NCBI RefSeq assembly: GCF_009649175.1
Contig: NZ_WJPO01000012.1
Coordinates: 1 to 64,000 of the forward strand
Direction of reading: 5' to 3'
Source of the DNA: Rhodovulum strictum
GTDB taxonomy: Bacteria > Pseudomonadota > Alphaproteobacteria > Rhodobacterales > Rhodobacteraceae
Length of the DNA: 64,000 nucleotides
Both the position numbers and the translations under genes were made by a program. The notes under the pieces were generated by a model that saw nothing but the letters and a program-made list of their open reading frames with translations, had not been told where the DNA came from and did no database searches. Shown one piece after another: positions 4,665-28,970 of the stretch. Each line of letters begins with the position of its first letter. Within the stretch, counting starts at the first letter, position 1.

Positions 4665-5218
4665 CCCCCATTCATCAGCGCGGCGACGATGGCCTTGGCG
4701 CTGTCGCTGTCCCATTCGGCATCGCCCTGCATCCGGGCAATCTCCTGTCCTTCGGGGTTCAGGATCACGGTCACGGGCAGGCCCATCACCCCCATCTGCC
4801 GGGCCAGCCCCGAATCCGGGTCGCGCCATTTCGGCAGGGTGGCGATGGACAGATCCGAGAACAGCCGGTCGATGCCCTGGGGCGAATTGCGCCCGGTCGC
4901 CACCGTGACCACCGCAAAGCCCGCGCCGCCGAATTCGGCATTCAGCCGGTCGAGCGCGGGCATTTCATGGCGGCAGGGCGGGCACCAGGTTGCCCAGAAA
5001 TTCAGCACCACCCAGCGGCCGCGATGTTCGCCCAGCGCGCGGGGCGCCTCGGCCTCGTCGATCAGGGCGATTGCGGGCACGGGTTTCGGCGCGGCATGGA
5101 AGACGAGCTTGCGCATGTCGCCTTCGCGCAGCCCGTTCAGCGCGGCGGGATCGGCGGCGGCGGCATTTGCACCCAGCGCAAGGGCCGTGTAGAGGACGAG
5201 CGACCTGACGAACGACAT
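4661..5218 (-). CDS. TlpA/DsbE-type thiol-disulfide oxidoreductase
   Basis: Periplasmic thioredoxin-fold protein of 185 residues. The N-terminal signal peptide is [22 protein letters not shown]. The active site is WCPPC (Cys79, Cys82) in the context [20 protein letters not shown], and the cis-Pro segment is [12 protein letters not shown]. TlpA and DsbE relatives reduce disulfides during cytochrome c or oxidase maturation; no such genes are adjacent, so the substrate is open. Start ATG at 5218 faces argH across only 24 bases, so promoter elements must overlap gene ends. Confidence 0.9.
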
Positions 5219-5242
5219 TTTTCCCTCCGAAGGGCCGTGACG

Positions 5243-6634
5243 ATGACCAACGACCAGTCCAACGCGATGTGGGGCGGGCGGTTCGCCGCCGGGCCGGACG
5301 CGATCATGGAGGCGATCAATGCCTCGATCTCGTTCGACCAGCGGCTGGCAGCCCAGGACATCGCCGGTTCCCGCGCCCATGCCGCCATGCTGGCAGCCAC
5401 GGGCATCATAAGCGATACGGATTCGCAGGCGATCCGGGAAGGGCTGCTCACGGTCTTGTCAGAGATCGAAGGCGGGCGCTTCGCGTTTTCCACCGCGCTC
5501 GAAGACATCCACATGAATGTCGAGGCGCGGCTGAAAGAGGTGATCGGCGAACCGGCGGGACGGCTGCACACCGCGCGCAGCCGCAACGATCAGGTGGCAA
5601 CCGATTTCCGGCTCTGGGTGCGCGACCAGATCGACGCCGCGCTGGCGGGGCTTGAGGCGCTGATCCGCGCGCTGCTGGCGCAGGCCGAGGCGGGGGCCGA
5701 CTGGGTGATGCCGGGCTTCACCCATCTGCAAACCGCCCAGCCGGTGACATGGGGCCACTACATGATGGCCTATGTCGAGATGTTCGCCCGCGACATGGGC
5801 CGCTTTGCCGATGCCCGCGCGCGGATGAACGAATGTCCCCTTGGTGCGGCGGCGCTGGCGGGCACGTCCTTTCCCATCGACCGGCACATGACGGCGGCGG
5901 CGCTGGGCTTCGACCGGCCGATGGCCAACAGCCTTGACGCGGTCAGCGACCGGGATTTCGCGCTGGAATTTCTGGGCGCCGCGTCGATCTGCGCGATGCA
6001 CCTGTCGCGTTTTGCCGAGGAACTGGTGATCTGGTCCTCGGCGCAGTTCCGCTTCGTCACCCTCAGCGACCGCTTCTCGACCGGTTCCTCGATCATGCCG
6101 CAGAAGAAGAACCCCGATGCGGCCGAACTGATCCGGGCCAAGATCGGGCGGATCATGGGGGCGAATGTCGCGCTGATGATGGTGATGAAGGGGCTGCCCT
6201 TGGCCTATTCCAAGGACATGCAGGAAGACAAGGAACAGGTCTTCGACGCCGCCGACAGCCTGATGCTGGCGCTGGCCGCGATGGAGGGCATGGTGCGCGA
6301 CATGCACGCGAACCGCCCCGCGCTGGAGGCGGCGGCAGCCAGCGGTTTTTCCACCGCGACCGATCTGGCCGACTGGCTGGTGCGGGCGCTGGGCATGCCG
6401 TTTCGCGACGCCCACCATGTCACCGGGCGGCTGGTCGCGCTGGCCGAGGCCAAGGGCTGCGATCTGCCCGACCTGACGCTTGCCGACATGCAGGGCGTGC
6501 ATGCGGGCATCGGGGCGGCGGTGTTCGACGTTCTGGGCGTGCACAATTCGGTCGCGAGTCGGGTAAGCTATGGCGGCACCGCGCCCGATCAGGTGCGGGC
6601 ACAGGTGGCGCGCTGGAAGGAACGGTTGGGATGA
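5243..6634 (+). CDS. argH: Argininosuccinate lyase
   Basis: Last step of arginine synthesis: argininosuccinate to arginine and fumarate. The 463-residue length is normal. The fumarase/aspartase superfamily signature [12 protein letters not shown] lies near residue 280, and the substrate-binding [14 protein letters not shown] and [11 protein letters not shown] blocks are intact. The start at 5243 ([14 protein letters not shown]) matches the family; the frame upstream is only the antisense of tlpA. It is the first gene of the operon argH - lipoprotein - LptM-like - DUF2834 - lysA - TIGR02302, whose members overlap or nearly touch. Confidence 0.97.
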
Positions 6635-21324: not shown

Positions 21325-22284
21325 TTACTTTCCGGCGATCATCTCGGCCTGCTTGACGATCACCTCGGCCTGCTTGATCGAGGCGATATCGACCAGACGG
21401 CCCTTGTAGACGGTCGCGCCCGCGCCTTCGGCCTTGGCCTTTTCCATCGCGGCCAGAATCTCGCGCGCTTCGGTCACGGCTGCTTCCGACGGCGTGAACA
21501 CCTCGTTGGCCAGCGCCACCTGCTTGGGATGGATCGCCCATTTGCCGACCATGCCCAGCGTGGCCGAGCGCCGCGCCTGGGCATAGAACCCCTCGTCATC
21601 CGAGAAATCACCAAACGGCCCATCGACCGGCAGCACGCCATGGGTGCGGCAGGCGGCGACGATGCTGGCCTGCGCCCAGTGCCAGGGATCGGACCAGTAT
21701 TTCGCGCCCGCATGGTGCATGTAATAGTTTTCCTGCGTGCCGCCGATGCCGGTGGTCTGCATCCCCATCGAGGCGGCGAAATCGGCCGCGCCCAGCGACA
21801 TCGCCTGAAGCCGGGGGCTGGCGGCGGCGATTTCCTCGACATGGGAAATCCCGGCGGCCGATTCGATGATGACCTCGAAGCCCAGCGGCTTGGTGCGGCC
21901 CATCGCCCGCTCGACCGAGGTAACCAGCGCATCGACGGCATAGATATCGGCCGCGCAGCCCGCCTTGGGGATCATGATCAGGTCAAGCCGGTCAGAGGCC
22001 TGTTCCAGCAGGTCGACCACATCGCGATACCAGAACCCCGAATCGAGCCCGTTGATCCGCACGCTCAGCGTCTTGTTGCCCCAGTCGATATCGCCGATGG
22101 CCTGGATCACGTTCTTGCGGGCCTGCGCCTTGTCGTCGGGGGCGACCGAATCCTCGAGATCGAGGTTGATCACGTCCGCGGCGCTGGTCGCCATCTTGGC
22201 GAACAGTTCGGGCCGCGAACCGGGGCCGAAAAGCTGGCAGCGGTTCGGGCGCGCGACGGGGGTGGGCTGGATGCGAAAGCTCAT
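21325..22284 (-). CDS. mcl1: L-malyl-CoA / beta-methylmalyl-CoA lyase
   Basis: CitE-like aldolase that reversibly cleaves malyl-CoA and methylmalyl-CoA. In Rhodobacter the enzyme serves the ethylmalonyl-CoA pathway for acetyl-CoA assimilation and related carbon routes. 319 residues, the length of the Rhodobacter enzyme. Visible blocks are INLDLEDSVAPDDK (metal/CoA site), VRINGLDSG, IMIPKAG, EVIIESAAGI and GKWAIHPKQ. Start ATG at 22284 (MSFRIQPTPVARPNRCQLF); upstream codons in the same frame lack homology. A terminator follows. It is divergent from dgcN over a 293-base region. Confidence 0.93.
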   Translation of the reverse strand: MSFRIQPTPVARPNRCQLFGPGSRPELFAKMATSAADVINLDLEDSVAPDDKAQARKNVIQAIGDIDWGNKTLSVRINGLDSGFWYRDVVDLLEQASDRLDLIMIPKAGCAADIYAVDALVTSVERAMGRTKPLGFEVIIESAAGISHVEEIAAASPRLQAMSLGAADFAASMGMQTTGIGGTQENYYMHHAGAKYWSDPWHWAQASIVAACRTHGVLPVDGPFGDFSDDEGFYAQARRSATLGMVGKWAIHPKQVALANEVFTPSEAAVTEAREILAAMEKAKAEGAGATVYKGRLVDIASIKQAEVIVKQAEMIAGK

Positions 22285-22426
22285 GGTCGGGTCTCCTTGA
22301 AAGGATCTGTCCGGTCGTTCGCGTCCGGGGATAGAAAACTGCGCCCGGCTCGGCAAGGGATTTCGCCGCGCCGCAGCGTCAAGCCCCGCGATTCTGCGGA
22401 TCGGGCGGCCCGAACGGGGGATGGTT

Positions 22427-22462
22427 CGCACAATTCCGCAATCTGTCGAATATTCTTGTGCG
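22427..22462. promoter_or_regulatory. Inverted repeat in the mcl1-dgcN divergent region
   Basis: CGCACAA at 22427-22433 is repeated inverted as TTGTGCG at 22456-22462, with a 22-base spacer that holds the palindrome GAATATTC (22448-22455). The site is AT-rich against its surroundings and lies between divergent genes, as expected of an operator or promoter region. No regulator gene is adjacent. The rest of the 293-base region shows nothing else I can name. Confidence 0.4.
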
Positions 22463-22577
22463 TCACGGCCATTCACAGCGGGAACCTTCACGCCGCAGGC
22501 GCATTCCCGGCACAGATCGGCAGGACATCCCCGCGCCGCTCGCTAGGCTCTGGCCGACAAACGCATGGAGCCCCGCG

Positions 22578-23579
22578 ATGATCCGGACCCCCTATCTGCT
22601 GTTCCTGGGCGACGCGCCCGATCCGCTGGCCGCCAAGGTCGCGCAGGGCATCCGCGACTGGCGGCCCGAAAACGCGCTGGGCCAGTTCCGGATGGCGGGT
22701 TGCAAGGCCGATCTGCGCCTGCCCGACATGACGCTGACCGAGGCGCGCGATGCGGGCGCCAGAACGCTGGTGGTCGGCGTCGCGAACCGCGGCGGGGTCA
22801 TCAGCCCGGCCTGGAAAAAGGTACTGGTGGCCGCGCTGGAAGAAGGTTTCGATCTGGCCAGCGGGCTGCACAACCTTTTACGCGACGAACCCGATCTGGC
22901 CGCGGTCGCCGCCGCCTGCGGGCGGCAATTGCATGACGTGCGGGTGCCCACGGTCGCCTATCCCATTGCCAACGGGGTCAAGCGCAGCGGCAAGCGGTGC
23001 CTCGCGGTCGGCACCGATTGTTCGGTCGGCAAGATGTATACCGCACTGGCCATGGATCGCGAGATGCAGGCGCGCGGGATGAAGGCGACTTTCCGCCCGA
23101 CCGGACAGACCGGGATTCTGATTACCGGGGACGGCGTGCCGCTGGATGCGGTGGTGGCCGATTTCATGGCCGGTGCCGTGGAATGGCTGACCCCCGACAA
23201 CGACCCCGACCATTGGGATCTGATCGAGGGGCAGGGCAGCCTGTTCCACCCCTCCTATTCCGGGGTCACGCTGGCGCTGATCCATGGCGGGCAACCCGAT
23301 GCGCTGATCCTCAGCCATGAACCCACGCGCGCCCATATGCGCGGGCTGCCGCACTTTGCCCTGCCCCCGCTGGAGGCGCTGCGCGACCTGTCGCTGGCCA
23401 TGGCCCGGATGGTCAACCCTGCGGTCCAGGTGGTCGGCATCTCGATCAACACCGCCGCCATGGGCGAGGACGAGGCGCTGGCGCATCTGGAAAGTGTCGA
23501 GCGGCAGATGGGGCTGCCCACGGTCGATCCGTTCCGGCAGGGCGCGGGGCGTCTGGTGGACGCGCTGGCGGCGCTGTAG
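22578..23579 (+). CDS. dgcN: N-acetyltransferase DgcN (DUF1611 family)
   Basis: 333 residues. DUF1611 proteins have a P-loop-like domain; the member named DgcN acetylates D-glutamate in a D-glutamate catabolic route in which DgcA then racemises N-acetyl-D-glutamate. Visible here are GTDCSVGKMYTALAMD (P-loop-like, near residue 145), RPTGQTGILITG, and EGQGSLFHPSYSGVTLALIHG. Start ATG at 22578 (MIRTPYLLFLGDAPDPLAAK) fits the family; the frame upstream is not conserved. The dgcA start lies nine bases after the stop. Substrate is by family knowledge. Confidence 0.85.
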   Translation: MIRTPYLLFLGDAPDPLAAKVAQGIRDWRPENALGQFRMAGCKADLRLPDMTLTEARDAGARTLVVGVANRGGVISPAWKKVLVAALEEGFDLASGLHNLLRDEPDLAAVAAACGRQLHDVRVPTVAYPIANGVKRSGKRCLAVGTDCSVGKMYTALAMDREMQARGMKATFRPTGQTGILITGDGVPLDAVVADFMAGAVEWLTPDNDPDHWDLIEGQGSLFHPSYSGVTLALIHGGQPDALILSHEPTRAHMRGLPHFALPPLEALRDLSLAMARMVNPAVQVVGISINTAAMGEDEALAHLESVERQMGLPTVDPFRQGAGRLVDALAAL

Positions 23580-23588
23580 GCTGCGCCC

Positions 23589-24554
23589 ATGCAGATCGTC
23601 GTCACACCCGAAAGCTTCGCCCTGAAAGAACCCTTCGCCATCTCTCGCGGCAGCCGAACCGCGGCCGAGGTGCTGACCGTGCGCATCGCCGCCAATGGCG
23701 CGATGGTCTGGGGCGAATGCGTGCCCTATGCCCGCTATGGCGAATCGCCCGACAGCGTCGCCGCCCAGATCGCGGGTTTGCCCGACCGCCTTGACCGCGC
23801 GGCCTTGCAGGATCTGCTGCCGCCGGGTGCTGCCCGCAATGCCGTCGATTGCGCGCTGTGGGATCTGGCAGCCAAGCGGGCCGACCGGCGGGTGTGGCAA
23901 CTGGCGGGCCTGCCCGCGCCGAAACCCGTCATCACGGCCTTCACCCTGTCGCTGGACGCGCCCGAAAACATGCGCGCGGCGGCCGAGCGCAACGCGCAGC
24001 GCCCGCTGCTGAAGGTCAAGCTCGGCACCGAAGACGACATGGCCCGGATCGAGGCGGTGCGCGCAGGTGCGCCGAAATCGCGGATCATCGTCGATGCGAA
24101 CGAGGGCTGGACGCCCGAGATCTATACCGAGCTTGCGCCGCATCTGGTGCGGCTGGGGGTCGAGATGGTGGAACAGCCCCTGCCCGCCGGGTCCGACGAC
24201 ATGCTGGCCGAGATCGCCCGCCCCCTGCCCGTCTGCGCCGATGAAAGCTGCCATGACCGCGCCTCGCTGCCGGGGCTCAAGGGCAAGTACGACATGGTCA
24301 ACATCAAGCTCGACAAGACCGGCGGGCTGACCGAGGCGCTGGCCCTGAAAAAGGCCGCCCGGGCCGAAGGCTTCGGGATCATGGTGGGCTGCATGGTCGG
24401 CACCAGCCTTGCGATGGCGCCCGCCGTGGTGCTGGCCCAGGGCGCGGCGGTGACGGATCTTGACGGCCCGCTGCTTCTGGCCGAAGACCGCCCCAATGCG
24501 CTGCGCTACGACGCAAAGGGCGTGCATCCGCCCGATGCGTTCCTGTGGGGCTGA
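23589..24554 (+). CDS. dgcA: Dipeptide-epimerase-like racemase DgcA (enolase superfamily)
   Basis: 321 residues. Enolase-superfamily active site: the KxK motif in LLKVKLG, metal ligands Asp in VDANEGW, Glu in EMVEQPL and Asp in CADESCHD, and the second catalytic Lys in VNIKLDKTGG. By sequence alone it is an L-Ala-D/L-Glu-type epimerase; next to dgcN the role N-acetyl-D-glutamate racemase is favoured. ATG at 23589. The operon continues to the transaminase gene 32 bases downstream. Confidence 0.85.
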   Translation: MQIVVTPESFALKEPFAISRGSRTAAEVLTVRIAANGAMVWGECVPYARYGESPDSVAAQIAGLPDRLDRAALQDLLPPGAARNAVDCALWDLAAKRADRRVWQLAGLPAPKPVITAFTLSLDAPENMRAAAERNAQRPLLKVKLGTEDDMARIEAVRAGAPKSRIIVDANEGWTPEIYTELAPHLVRLGVEMVEQPLPAGSDDMLAEIARPLPVCADESCHDRASLPGLKGKYDMVNIKLDKTGGLTEALALKKAARAEGFGIMVGCMVGTSLAMAPAVVLAQGAAVTDLDGPLLLAEDRPNALRYDAKGVHPPDAFLWG

Positions 24555-24586
24555 CGCCGGGCCGCAAGAGCGAAAGGACCAGAGCG

Positions 24587-25447
24587 ATGAGCCGGATCGT
24601 CTATGTCAATGGCGAGTATCTGCCCGAAGATCAGGCCAGGGTCTCGGTCTTCGACCGCGGCTTCCTGTTCGCCGACGGCGTCTACGAGGTGACCAGCGTC
24701 ATCGACGGCAAGCTGGTCGATTTCCCCGGCCATGCCGCGCGGCTGGAACGCTCGCTGGCCGAACTGGACATGCCCTCGCCGATGACATCGGGCGAGTTGC
24801 TGGCGATCCATCGCGAACTGGTGGCGCGCAACGATGTGACCGAAGGGATGGTCTATCTTCAGATCACCCGCGGCGCCCCCGCGGACCGCGATTTCGTCTT
24901 CCCCGATCCGGCCGAGACGCCGCAGACCGTGGTGCTGTTCACCCAGTCCAAGGGGCTGGTCGACAGCCCCGCGGCGCAGACCGGGCTCAAGGTGATCTCG
25001 ATCCCCGATATCCGCTGGGGCCGGCGCGACATCAAGACCGTGCAACTGCTCTACCCGTCGGTCGGCAAGATGATGGCCAGGCGCGCGGGCGCGGACGATG
25101 CCTGGATGGTCGAGGACGGTTTCGTGACCGAAGGGACCAGCAACAACGCCTATATCGTCAAGGATGGCCGGATCATCACGCGCCAACTGGGCAACGAGAT
25201 CCTGCACGGGATCACCCGCGCCGCCGTTCTGGCCTTTGCCCGCGAGGCGCAGATGCAGGTCGAGGAACGCCCCTTCACCATCGAGGAGGCACAGGCCGCG
25301 GACGAGGCGTTCATCACCTCGGCCTCGACCTTCGTGATGCCGGTGGTGTCGGTCGACGGCGTGGCGCTGGGGGACGGCAAGCCGGGTCCGGTCGCGCGGC
25401 GGCTGCGCGAGATCTATATCGAGCAAAGCCGCAAGGCCGCGGTCTGA
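24587..25447 (+). CDS. D-amino-acid transaminase (class IV aminotransferase)
   Basis: Fold-type IV PLP enzyme, 286 residues. The Schiff-base Lys150 lies in RRDIKTVQLL, the D-AAT pattern, with DRGFLFADGVYEV at 22-35, EGTSNNAYIV, and ITSAS near the C-terminus. It moves amino groups between D-amino acids (D-Ala, D-Glu) and 2-oxo acids. Start ATG at 24587, preceded by GAAAGGA. It closes the dgcN-dgcA operon, supporting a shared role in D-amino-acid use. D-selectivity over branched-chain use is inferred. Confidence 0.88.
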   Translation: MSRIVYVNGEYLPEDQARVSVFDRGFLFADGVYEVTSVIDGKLVDFPGHAARLERSLAELDMPSPMTSGELLAIHRELVARNDVTEGMVYLQITRGAPADRDFVFPDPAETPQTVVLFTQSKGLVDSPAAQTGLKVISIPDIRWGRRDIKTVQLLYPSVGKMMARRAGADDAWMVEDGFVTEGTSNNAYIVKDGRIITRQLGNEILHGITRAAVLAFAREAQMQVEERPFTIEEAQAADEAFITSASTFVMPVVSVDGVALGDGKPGPVARRLREIYIEQSRKAAV

Positions 25448-25460
25448 GACGGCACCGGCG

Positions 25461-25522
25461 CGGGGGGGCGCTGCCCCCCGTCCTTGCGGACTCCCCCCGG
25501 GGTATTTTTGCCAAGAAGAAGG
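25461..25522 (+). terminator. Terminator-like hairpin plus dispersed element, copy B
   Basis: CGGGGGG / CCCCCCG (25461-25480) forms a hairpin just after the transaminase stop, followed by CTCCCCCCGGGGTATTTTTGCCAAGAAGAAG. The GGTATTT...CCAAGAAGAAG tail matches copies A and C. The T run suits transcript termination here. Confidence 0.6.
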
Positions 25523-27806: not shown

Positions 27807-28970
27807 ATGCCCGTGATCACCACCATCGAGGACCTGCGCCGCATCCATGCCCGCCGCGCGCCGCGGATGTTCTACGATTATTGCGAGTCGGGAAGCTGGA
27901 CCGAGCAGACCTTTCGCGACAATATCTCGGATTTCGCTCAGATCCGGCTGCGCCAGCGCGTCGCGGTGGACATGGCGGGGCGGTCGACCGCCGCGCGCAT
28001 GATCGGGCAGGATGTGGCGATGCCGGTGGCGCTGGCGCCGGTCGGGCTGACGGGCATGCAATCGGCCGATGGCGAGATCAAGGCCGCGCGTGCAGCCGAG
28101 AAATTCGGCGTGCCCTTCACACTCTCCACCATGTCGATCTGTTCCATCGAGGATGTGGCAGCGCACACGACCAAGCCCTTCTGGTTCCAGCTTTACGTCA
28201 TGCGCGACGAGGATTTCGTGGCCCGCATCCTGCAACGCGCCAAGGATGCACGCTGTTCGGCGCTGGTGCTGACGCTGGATCTGCAAATCCTCGGCCAGCG
28301 GCACAAGGATCTGAAGAACGGGCTGTCCGCCCCGCCCAAGCCGACGCTGCGGACGATGGCGAACCTGGCGACGAAATGGCGCTGGGGGCTGGAGATGCTG
28401 GGCACCAAGCGGCGCTTCTTCGGCAATATCGTGGGCCATGCCAGGGGCGTCAGCGATGCCTCGTCGCTGACCGACTGGACGGCCGAGCAATTCGACCACT
28501 CGCTTGACTGGGACAAGGTGCGCAAGCTCAAGGAGCAATGGGGAGGCAAGCTGATCCTCAAGGGCATTCTGGACGCCGAGGATGCCCGGCGTGCGGTCGA
28601 TGTGGGCGCCGATGCGATCGTGGTGTCGAACCATGGTGGGCGGCAGCTTGACGGGGCGTTGTCCTCGATCCGCGCGCTGCCCGGCATCGTGCGCGCCGTG
28701 GGCGATCAGGTCGAGGTGCATTTCGATGGCGGCATCCGCTCGGGCCAGGATGTGCTCAAGGCGCTGGCGCTGGGGGCCAGGGGCACCTATATCGGCCGCG
28801 CCTTCGTCTACGGGCTGGGCGCGATGGGCGAGGCGGGCGTCACCCGCGCGCTGGAGGTGATCCACAAGGAGCTGGACACCACCATGGCGCTCTGCGGGCG
28901 CAGGTCGGTCGCGGCGCTGGACCGCGACATCCTGCTGGTGCCGTCGGATTTCGAGGGCAACTGGGCCTGA
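27807..28970 (+). CDS. lldD: FMN-dependent alpha-hydroxy-acid dehydrogenase (LldD-like)
   Basis: Oxidises an L-2-hydroxy acid, most likely L-lactate, to the 2-oxo acid with FMN. 387 residues. The catalytic His lies in SNHGGRQLDG (about residue 276), with FMN-binding blocks MPVALAPVGLTGM, LYVMRDEDF, LILKGI and FDGGIRSGQDVLKALALGA. Start ATG at 27807 (MPVITTIEDLRRIHARRAP), seven bases after AGGGAG; a longer start at 27789 would swallow that ribosome-binding site. Single gene; the 213 bases before it hold its presumed promoter. Confidence 0.92.
   Translation: MPVITTIEDLRRIHARRAPRMFYDYCESGSWTEQTFRDNISDFAQIRLRQRVAVDMAGRSTAARMIGQDVAMPVALAPVGLTGMQSADGEIKAARAAEKFGVPFTLSTMSICSIEDVAAHTTKPFWFQLYVMRDEDFVARILQRAKDARCSALVLTLDLQILGQRHKDLKNGLSAPPKPTLRTMANLATKWRWGLEMLGTKRRFFGNIVGHARGVSDASSLTDWTAEQFDHSLDWDKVRKLKEQWGGKLILKGILDAEDARRAVDVGADAIVVSNHGGRQLDGALSSIRALPGIVRAVGDQVEVHFDGGIRSGQDVLKALALGARGTYIGRAFVYGLGAMGEAGVTRALEVIHKELDTTMALCGRRSVAALDRDILLVPSDFEGNWA

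Follow-up and report, generated by a model that had tools for sequence, protein, structure and literature searches.

The stretch of DNA analysed here (the window) comprises positions 1 to 64,000 of contig NZ_WJPO01000012.1 of Rhodovulum strictum (assembly GCF_009649175.1) and contains three consecutive forward-strand genes, dgcN, dgcA and dat, that diverge from the malyl-CoA lyase gene mcl1. We consider it probable, from sequence comparison, that these genes constitute a D-amino-acid utilization operon in the form typical of the Rhodobacteraceae, whose members include purple and marine bacteria, and that this operon has its own operator, an array of helically phased and nearly palindromic 14-bp boxes upstream of dgcN, separate from a conserved element belonging to mcl1. 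The operator array is what appears to be new here; the enzymes and their presence in Rhodobacteraceae are already known. No description of the array, or of the adjacency to mcl1, was found in the literature searched, which took in few subscription papers.

A predicted operator array upstream of dgcN

The family was surveyed using one genome from each of 149 genera, 132 of these genomes being at least 90% complete with no more than 5% contamination. Upstream of dgcN, 14-bp boxes approximating to CGAAGAATCTTGCG (termed dgc boxes) were observed, often 20-21, 30-32 or 40-42 bp apart, spacings that correspond to two, three and four turns of the helix. Within the window, dgc box A occupies positions 22427-22440 (9.4 bits as a symmetric 14-mer and 3.3 bits with a 22-column matrix) and dgc box B positions 22447-22460 (9.5 bits as a symmetric 14-mer). 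The weak dgc box C (22477-22490; 5.0 bits) follows 30 bp after box B, at approximately -100 from the ATG of dgcN, a position typical for the family. An additional weak box core (22385-22398; 7.6 bits) lies 42 bp before box A.

The motif was derived by expectation maximization from 85 genus-level upstream regions in which dgcN diverges from mcl1; in four of these the genes are separated by 1.1-1.5 kb and the last 400 bp were taken. A log-likelihood ratio of 458.9 was obtained with 80 start words, compared with 144.6 for one shuffled set with 40 start words. When the 22-column matrix was retrained without the window (aatTtgccGAAGAaTcTTGCg), it matched the window at 22440-22461 on the forward strand with 18.4 bits, a score reached by none of 1000 shuffles, and a 16-column matrix scored 16.4 bits (1/1000 shuffles as high). 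In 5-fold cross-validation the site was recovered in 68 of 85 held-out upstream regions; the shuffled control gave 1 of 85. Sites scoring over 9 bits were present in 78 of the 85 regions, mostly 97-147 bp before the start of dgcN, and both strands were used (49 and 29 sites).

The boxes were also phased with respect to one another. Secondary sites fell at multiples of the helical turn in 112 of 149 cases, compared with 27 at most in 200 runs with shuffled flanks. Outside the training set, where dgcN stands away from mcl1, a site was found in 12 of 22 upstream regions and 16 of 20 secondary sites were in phase (shuffled, 7 at most). Among 80 loci of named relatives, which partly overlap the training genera, a phased pair was present in 64 upstream regions when spacings of 40-42 bp were also admitted, as against a mean of 3.9 and a maximum of 9 after shuffling. 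Across the whole 64 kb of the window, the only pairs spaced by 20, 21 or 30-32 bp were those at 22427/22447 (spacing 20) and 22447/22477. A regulon search of the genome returned a single exact site, which is the one in the window, and three further sites that differ by one mismatch.

Several observations weigh against this interpretation. A strictly palindromic 16-mer matrix scored just 8.8 bits on the window, a value equalled in 241 of 1000 shuffles, so the box can be described only as nearly symmetric. The next best 22-mer match in the window (14.3 bits) is a single site at 28408, in a coding region. The start words for the matrices used in cross-validation and in the analysis without the window had been obtained with the window and the test sequences in the input. 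Finally, the box was detected in just 10 of the 22 upstream regions of dgcN genes away from mcl1 and was still present at 3 of 13 loci beside mcl1 that lack dgcN, and its tracking with dgcN is therefore imperfect.

The original prediction had proposed a candidate operator in the same DNA, but as an inverted repeat, CGCACAA-N22-TTGTGCG. This repeat is indeed present at 22427-22462, with arms at 22427-22433 and 22456-22462 and a spacer of 22 bp, but it is not itself conserved and no significance could be attached to it. Exact 7-bp inverted repeats with spacers of 10-30 bp occur 220 times in the 64 kb, and at least one comparable repeat arose in 46% of 300 first-order Markov shuffles of the 293-bp intergenic region. 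The exact repeat was kept at none of the 80 named loci and in only one of the 85 genus-level regions, namely the window itself. Neither arm was found within 300 bp before dgcN at six Rhodovulum loci checked, including that of Rhodovulum tesquicola, in which both arms are altered. Its chance-level frequency and its absence in relatives led to rejection of the repeat as a conserved operator unit. Given that boxes A and B occupy 22427-22440 and 22447-22460, the arms are better regarded as outer parts of two boxes, box A holding CGCACAA and box B overlapping TTGTGCG. Thus, an operator candidate in this DNA was borne out in the form of the predicted dgc boxes.

Genes and enzymes of the cluster

On the forward strand, dgcN (22578-23579; 333 residues) is followed after 9 bp by dgcA (23589-24554; 321 residues) and after a further 32-bp gap by dat (24587-25447; 286 residues). 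DgcN exceeded the cut-off of the curated NCBIfam equivalog model NF041892 for D-glutamate N-acetyltransferase (553.7 bits; cut-off 480), and its nearest solved sequence was PDB 7xrj (E = 1.3e-171), deposited as a putative NAD-dependent epimerase/dehydratase family protein. DgcA, of the enolase superfamily, exceeded that of the curated equivalog model NF042940 for N-acetyl-D-glutamate racemase (510.5 bits; cut-off 400), with PDB 4gfi as the nearest solved sequence and 1jpd, an Escherichia coli epimerase, as the second. Dat, a class IV D-amino-acid transaminase, passed NF005209 (385 bits; cut-off 320) and fell under the cut-off of TIGR01121 (233.3 bits; cut-off 277.45), two models for the same activity. 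Its nearest solved sequences were D-amino-acid aminotransferases, for example 1daa (E = 1.7e-47). The carboxylate trap of the Bacillus-type D-amino-acid transaminase consists of Tyr31, Arg98 and His100; in an alignment inspected by eye, Tyr33 and Arg101 of Dat coincided with the first two of these residues and Phe103 stood at the position of His100. The nearest named relative was R. tesquicola, the DgcN of which is 94% identical over residues 1-328.

The curated models therefore uphold all three names given in the original prediction to this gene row, the spacing of which is operon-like. The further claim that neither a dgcR-type regulator gene nor a deacetylase gene adjoins the row also held when the flanking open reading frames (ORFs) were judged by eye. 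Genes for ArgJ and ArgE, both over cut-off, are located elsewhere in the same genome. Directly 3' of dat, a G+C-rich hairpin, GGGGGGGCGCTGCCCCCC, is visible by eye at 25462-25479 and is a possible terminator.

Conservation within and beyond the Rhodobacteraceae

Distant paralogues of dgcN (matches with E above 1e-100) were dropped, reducing the count from 116 to 114 genomes, as were dgcA matches of less than 51% identity (128 to 127 genomes) and, among the matches listed, mcl1 of less than 68% identity (135 to 130 genomes). On this basis, dgcN was present in 114 of the 149 genera, dgcA in 127, dat in 143 and mcl1 in 130. The gene order was strongly kept: dgcA lay within 300 bp downstream of dgcN in 109 of 114 genera, dat lay downstream of dgcA within 300 bp in 98 of 127 and within 2 kb in 121, and in 81 of the 106 genera that have both, dgcN and mcl1 diverged at a distance of no more than 700 bp. 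Similarly, at the 80 named loci dgcA followed dgcN in 77, dat was within the 3-kb flank in 55, and mcl1 was divergent in 60 of 79. To be set against a single operon throughout the family, dgcA and dat were more than 300 bp apart or elsewhere in 29 of 127 genomes, so dat may not always share the transcript.

Across the phylum, an E value of 1e-60 was reached by DgcN in 68 of 398 genomes, and in 63 of these the cut-off was exceeded. Among 20 dgcN loci outside the family, dgcA was downstream in 18, dat was present in one and mcl1 in none. The dgcN-dgcA-dat form with mcl1 divergent is thus common in the family and rare outside it. The one outside locus with all three genes together (L190, genome G307) belongs to the same phylum and another class, and possibly reflects transfer of the three-gene form.

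The arrangement varies within the family. At seven loci mcl1 diverges from dgcA in the absence of dgcN, and at eight it diverges from dat with neither dgcN nor dgcA. One of these eight loci (L049, genome G077) still carries, between dat and mcl1, a C-terminal dgcA remnant of 64 residues, a relic of the loss of dgcA there. Where dgcN stands away from mcl1, a GST-like gene was seen upstream of it at 5 of 22 loci (L112, L124, L125, L131 and L147).

Candidate regulators

A factor, most likely of the Lrp/AsnC or LysR type, would bind cooperatively to boxes that share the same side of the helix and typically stand some 130 and 100 bp upstream of the dgcN start. One Lrp/AsnC gene recurs near the cluster in some genera, and the suggestion that its product binds the phased boxes is tentative and somewhat doubtful. 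This gene was found at 8 of 250 family loci, as five full copies that are 68-74% identical (L036, L130, L239, L245 and L262) and three cut by the end of the locus (L255, L013 and L028). It is placed on the 3' side of mcl1 at seven loci and directly before an mcl1-unlinked dgcN at L130, and the Pfam family AsnC_trans_reg was detected in all three of the proteins scanned. Octameric Lrp proteins suit phased arrays of sites. In the same 250 loci, a tblastn search with the LysR proteins encoded before dgcN outside the family matched only L051 and, weakly, L050, neither of which has dgcN. Against this candidate, the gene was found at only eight loci, many of the others having short flanks, and its own promoter carries a box in just one of five cases, such that autoregulation was rejected. 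A spacing of 30 bp also suits LysR-type factors, and two AraC-type pattern hits were found in Celeribacter loci. The Lrp/AsnC gene is a weak candidate for the regulator.

The LysR alternative draws on loci outside the family, 5 of 20 of which have a LysR gene before dgcN on the same strand (L177, L187, L188, L193 and L194); at L175 a divergent LysR gene precedes dgcN, as judged by eye. However, the best match of the L194 protein in the genome of the window is only 23% identical, and LysR of this type was set aside as a candidate there. At L186, from the same class and another family, a gene that appears by eye to be of the RpiR type (4959-5831) stands between dgcN and dgcA. This RpiR protein was likewise set aside, its match in the genome of the window being only 18% identical. 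A deacetylase or regulator was also sought between dgcA and dat or before unlinked dgcN by comparing 20 ORFs with Pfam; none was present among the 11 with a family, and the other nine had no family. The definition of a putative operator makes testable which regulator controls the route where no DgcR-like neighbour is seen.

Proposed pathway and supply of D-glutamate

D-Glutamate (D-Glu) is a building block of the bacterial cell wall and, in the sea, supplies organic nitrogen that is consumed slowly. Family membership suggests that DgcN would acetylate D-Glu to N-acetyl-D-Glu, which DgcA would racemize to N-acetyl-L-Glu. The acetyl group may then be removed or passed on by ArgE or ArgJ, encoded elsewhere, yielding L-Glu or arginine precursors. 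Dat would transaminate D-amino acids, with 2-oxo acids as partners, and could thereby offer a second route by which D-Glu and D-Ala are formed or used.

The possibility that dat is the only source of cell-wall D-Glu was rejected for the genome of the window, which has a match to murI that, at 139.5 bits, stays below the curated cut-off of 146.65 (E = 1.8e-40). In the 132 good-quality genomes, dat was present in 131 (E value of 1e-40) and a glutamate racemase match in 126, counting TIGR00067 matches of any score at an E value of 1e-3, fragments included. The six good genomes without a racemase match (G001, G015, G083, G090, G101 and G136) all have dat, and the sole good genome without dat (G085) has a racemase match; these gaps are complementary, and every good genome therefore has at least one possible source of D-Glu. 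A speculative and rather unlikely extension is that the cluster acts as a device for balancing D-Glu, in which dat would make or use D-Glu, DgcA would act on dipeptides released by cell-wall turnover as well as N-acetyl-D-Glu, DgcN would commit D-Glu to degradation, and an Lrp-type amino-acid sensor would read out this balance via the phased boxes. If this were true, loss of dgcN alone would turn a degradation route into a recycling route, seemingly several times.

DgcA in genomes that lack dgcN

No genus had dgcN without dgcA (0/114), whereas dgcA was kept without dgcN in 13 of 127. Given this asymmetry, DgcA probably has a second role. In 12 of the 13 dgcN-less genomes (all but G008), the DgcA sequences were compared, and Lys142, Lys144, Asp169, Asn171, Glu195 and Asp218 were all kept, as were Glu219, Lys240 and Asp290/Asp292 (window numbering). 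Against PRK15129, the model for L-Ala-D/L-Glu epimerase, DgcA of the window scored 330.1 bits, just under the cut-off of 343. In L-Ala-D/L-Glu epimerases a C-terminal DxD motif binds the amino group of the dipeptide, and alignment of the C-terminal DLDGP of DgcA with 4gfi and 1jpd placed such a motif there. This motif is not discriminating, since it is present in all 59 DgcA rows aligned. Nevertheless, the DxD held in common with the E. coli epimerase and the retention of dgcA without dgcN make it likely that, at least in some of the family, DgcA has a second substrate, whether a dipeptide or another compound; L-Ala-D/L-Glu would be the obvious choice.

In a tree of 59 proteins, which included 29 of the 114 family rows with dgcN and for which the bootstrap had not settled, parsimony required 9 changes of the label of dgcN absence (11.1 on average after shuffling), and the well-supported branches by themselves required at least five. 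It could be argued from these repeated label changes, and from the catalytic residues kept in the 12 dgcN-less proteins, the near-miss to PRK15129 and the rank of 1jpd as second closest solved sequence, that DgcA functions chiefly in peptidoglycan recycling, as an L-Ala-D/L-Glu epimerase, and that the cluster serves cell-wall turnover and not D-Glu catabolism. We regard this as unlikely: dgcA is accompanied by dgcN in 114 of 127 genera, the DgcA-specific model is passed far over its cut-off, and the same residues occur in DgcA encoded beside dgcN and therefore do not discriminate between the substrates. The list of genera with dgcA and without dgcN makes testable what DgcA does once DgcN is gone.

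A separate conserved element on the mcl1 side

The divergent neighbour, mcl1 (21325-22284, reverse strand), encodes a predicted L-malyl-CoA/beta-methylmalyl-CoA lyase that contains PF03328 (E = 2.1e-39) and has 4l9y (malyl-CoA lyase) as its nearest solved structure (E = 7.6e-186); it reached no NCBIfam cut-off. Alignment of 115 mcl1 upstream regions (85 with dgcN beside mcl1, 13 with dgcA or dat instead and 17 with mcl1 alone) revealed a conserved reverse-strand element at 22300-22378, degenerate in the window. It comprises a leader, AAGGA..TT.CG, at about 22300-22312 and the pattern G.TA..A.ATTGCGC N8 GCAAG .. TT.TGC .. GCAGC at about 22327-22378. With a matrix trained without the window, the best match of the window copy was at 22336-22355 (12.7 bits; p = 0.008). 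A first hand-written pattern (22/85 linked, 6/13 dgcN-less, 4/17 lone mcl1 and 0/22 dgcN-only regions) was abandoned in favour of the matrix.

According to the original prediction, D-amino-acid use and malyl-CoA metabolism may share a switch in this divergent region, and the frequent adjacency of mcl1 and dgcN within 700 bp would suit a single factor controlling both mcl1 and the dgc operon. At the 80 named loci, moreover, mcl1 was kept in 61, compared with 6 for the outer neighbour cysK and none for rlmL (flanks of up to 3 kb). The two genes carry different elements, however, and these mostly separate with them. Scored with a matrix from the linked set, the mcl1 element was recovered at 24 of the 30 mcl1-only loci but at just 1 of the 22 dgcN-only loci (p = 3e-8), and the dgc box at 10 of 22 dgcN-only loci and 4 of 30 mcl1-only loci (p = 0.013), both p values ignoring relatedness. 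For these comparisons, 22 of the 29 dgcN genes that lack a divergent mcl1 within 1.6 kb were used, together with 17 of 28 lone mcl1 genes and 13 of the 15 loci at which mcl1 adjoins dgcA or dat in the absence of dgcN, the other two being left out for a gap of more than 1 kb. The mcl1 element was kept when mcl1 stood beside dat or dgcA without dgcN, and also when it stood alone. Since the two elements tend to follow their respective genes where dgcN and mcl1 are separated, a common switch finds no support and appears quite unlikely. The distribution of the mcl1 element is instead indicative of two control regions placed back to back, the adjacency being often kept with no common switch; interference between the mcl1 and dgcN promoters may nevertheless occur.

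That the dgc boxes are part of a promoter or a DNA-bending signal would agree with their A+T-richer core within G+C-rich DNA and their fairly fixed position relative to dgcN, but is highly improbable in view of their use of both strands, their near-palindromic form and the lack, by eye, of any strongly conserved -10 downstream of the boxes in the aligned flanks.

Elsewhere in the window, the first 2000 positions have a G+C content of 0.55, compared with 0.62-0.71 in the remaining 2-kb steps, and are perhaps foreign or RNA-coding.

Comparison with known systems

A published network model for Rhodobacter sphaeroides places its malyl-CoA lyase gene (RSP_1771) alongside icd and the citrate synthase and nuo genes, and the portion of that report drawn on here assigns to this predicted central carbon cluster a shared inverted-repeat motif of an unidentified factor (PMC4344238). 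The RamB/ScfR operators of Paracoccus, as given in the part of the source used, are two near-identical promoter boxes with an 18-bp spacer, belonging to an operon for acetyl-CoA assimilation (PMC10370305). The likeness to them lies in the TTGC/GCAA half-sites of the mcl1 element of the window and does not concern the dgc boxes.

With regard to the enzymes, L-Ala-D/L-Glu epimerases such as that of E. coli (1jpd) have in common with DgcA, by alignment, the enolase-superfamily fold, the catalytic motifs and the C-terminal DxD; DgcA differs in scoring below the PRK15129 cut-off. Marine dgcN genes are mostly from Alphaproteobacteria, according to the part of PMC12363236 considered here. Rhodobacteraceae strain LCG007, which grows on D-Glu, D-Ala, D-Phe, D-Lys and D-Ser, is reported to have a D-amino-acid transaminase together with EC 2.3.1.312 and EC 5.1.1.25 (PMC11747546). 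The same three activities are predicted for the window; the sections of that report used here give the LCG007 genes by function only and describe no operon or operator.

Among the closest known systems is the DgcN-DgcA pathway for D-Glu, which reportedly comes from Pseudoalteromonas sp. CF6-2 and has DgcR as its regulator. Both enzymes of the window are members of this pathway by the curated models. In contrast to the CF6-2 system, the locus in the window has no adjoining regulator gene, the 23% match in its genome being to the dgcN-adjacent LysR and not to DgcR itself. It also differs in having dat downstream, mcl1 divergent and a phased array of putative operator boxes before dgcN.

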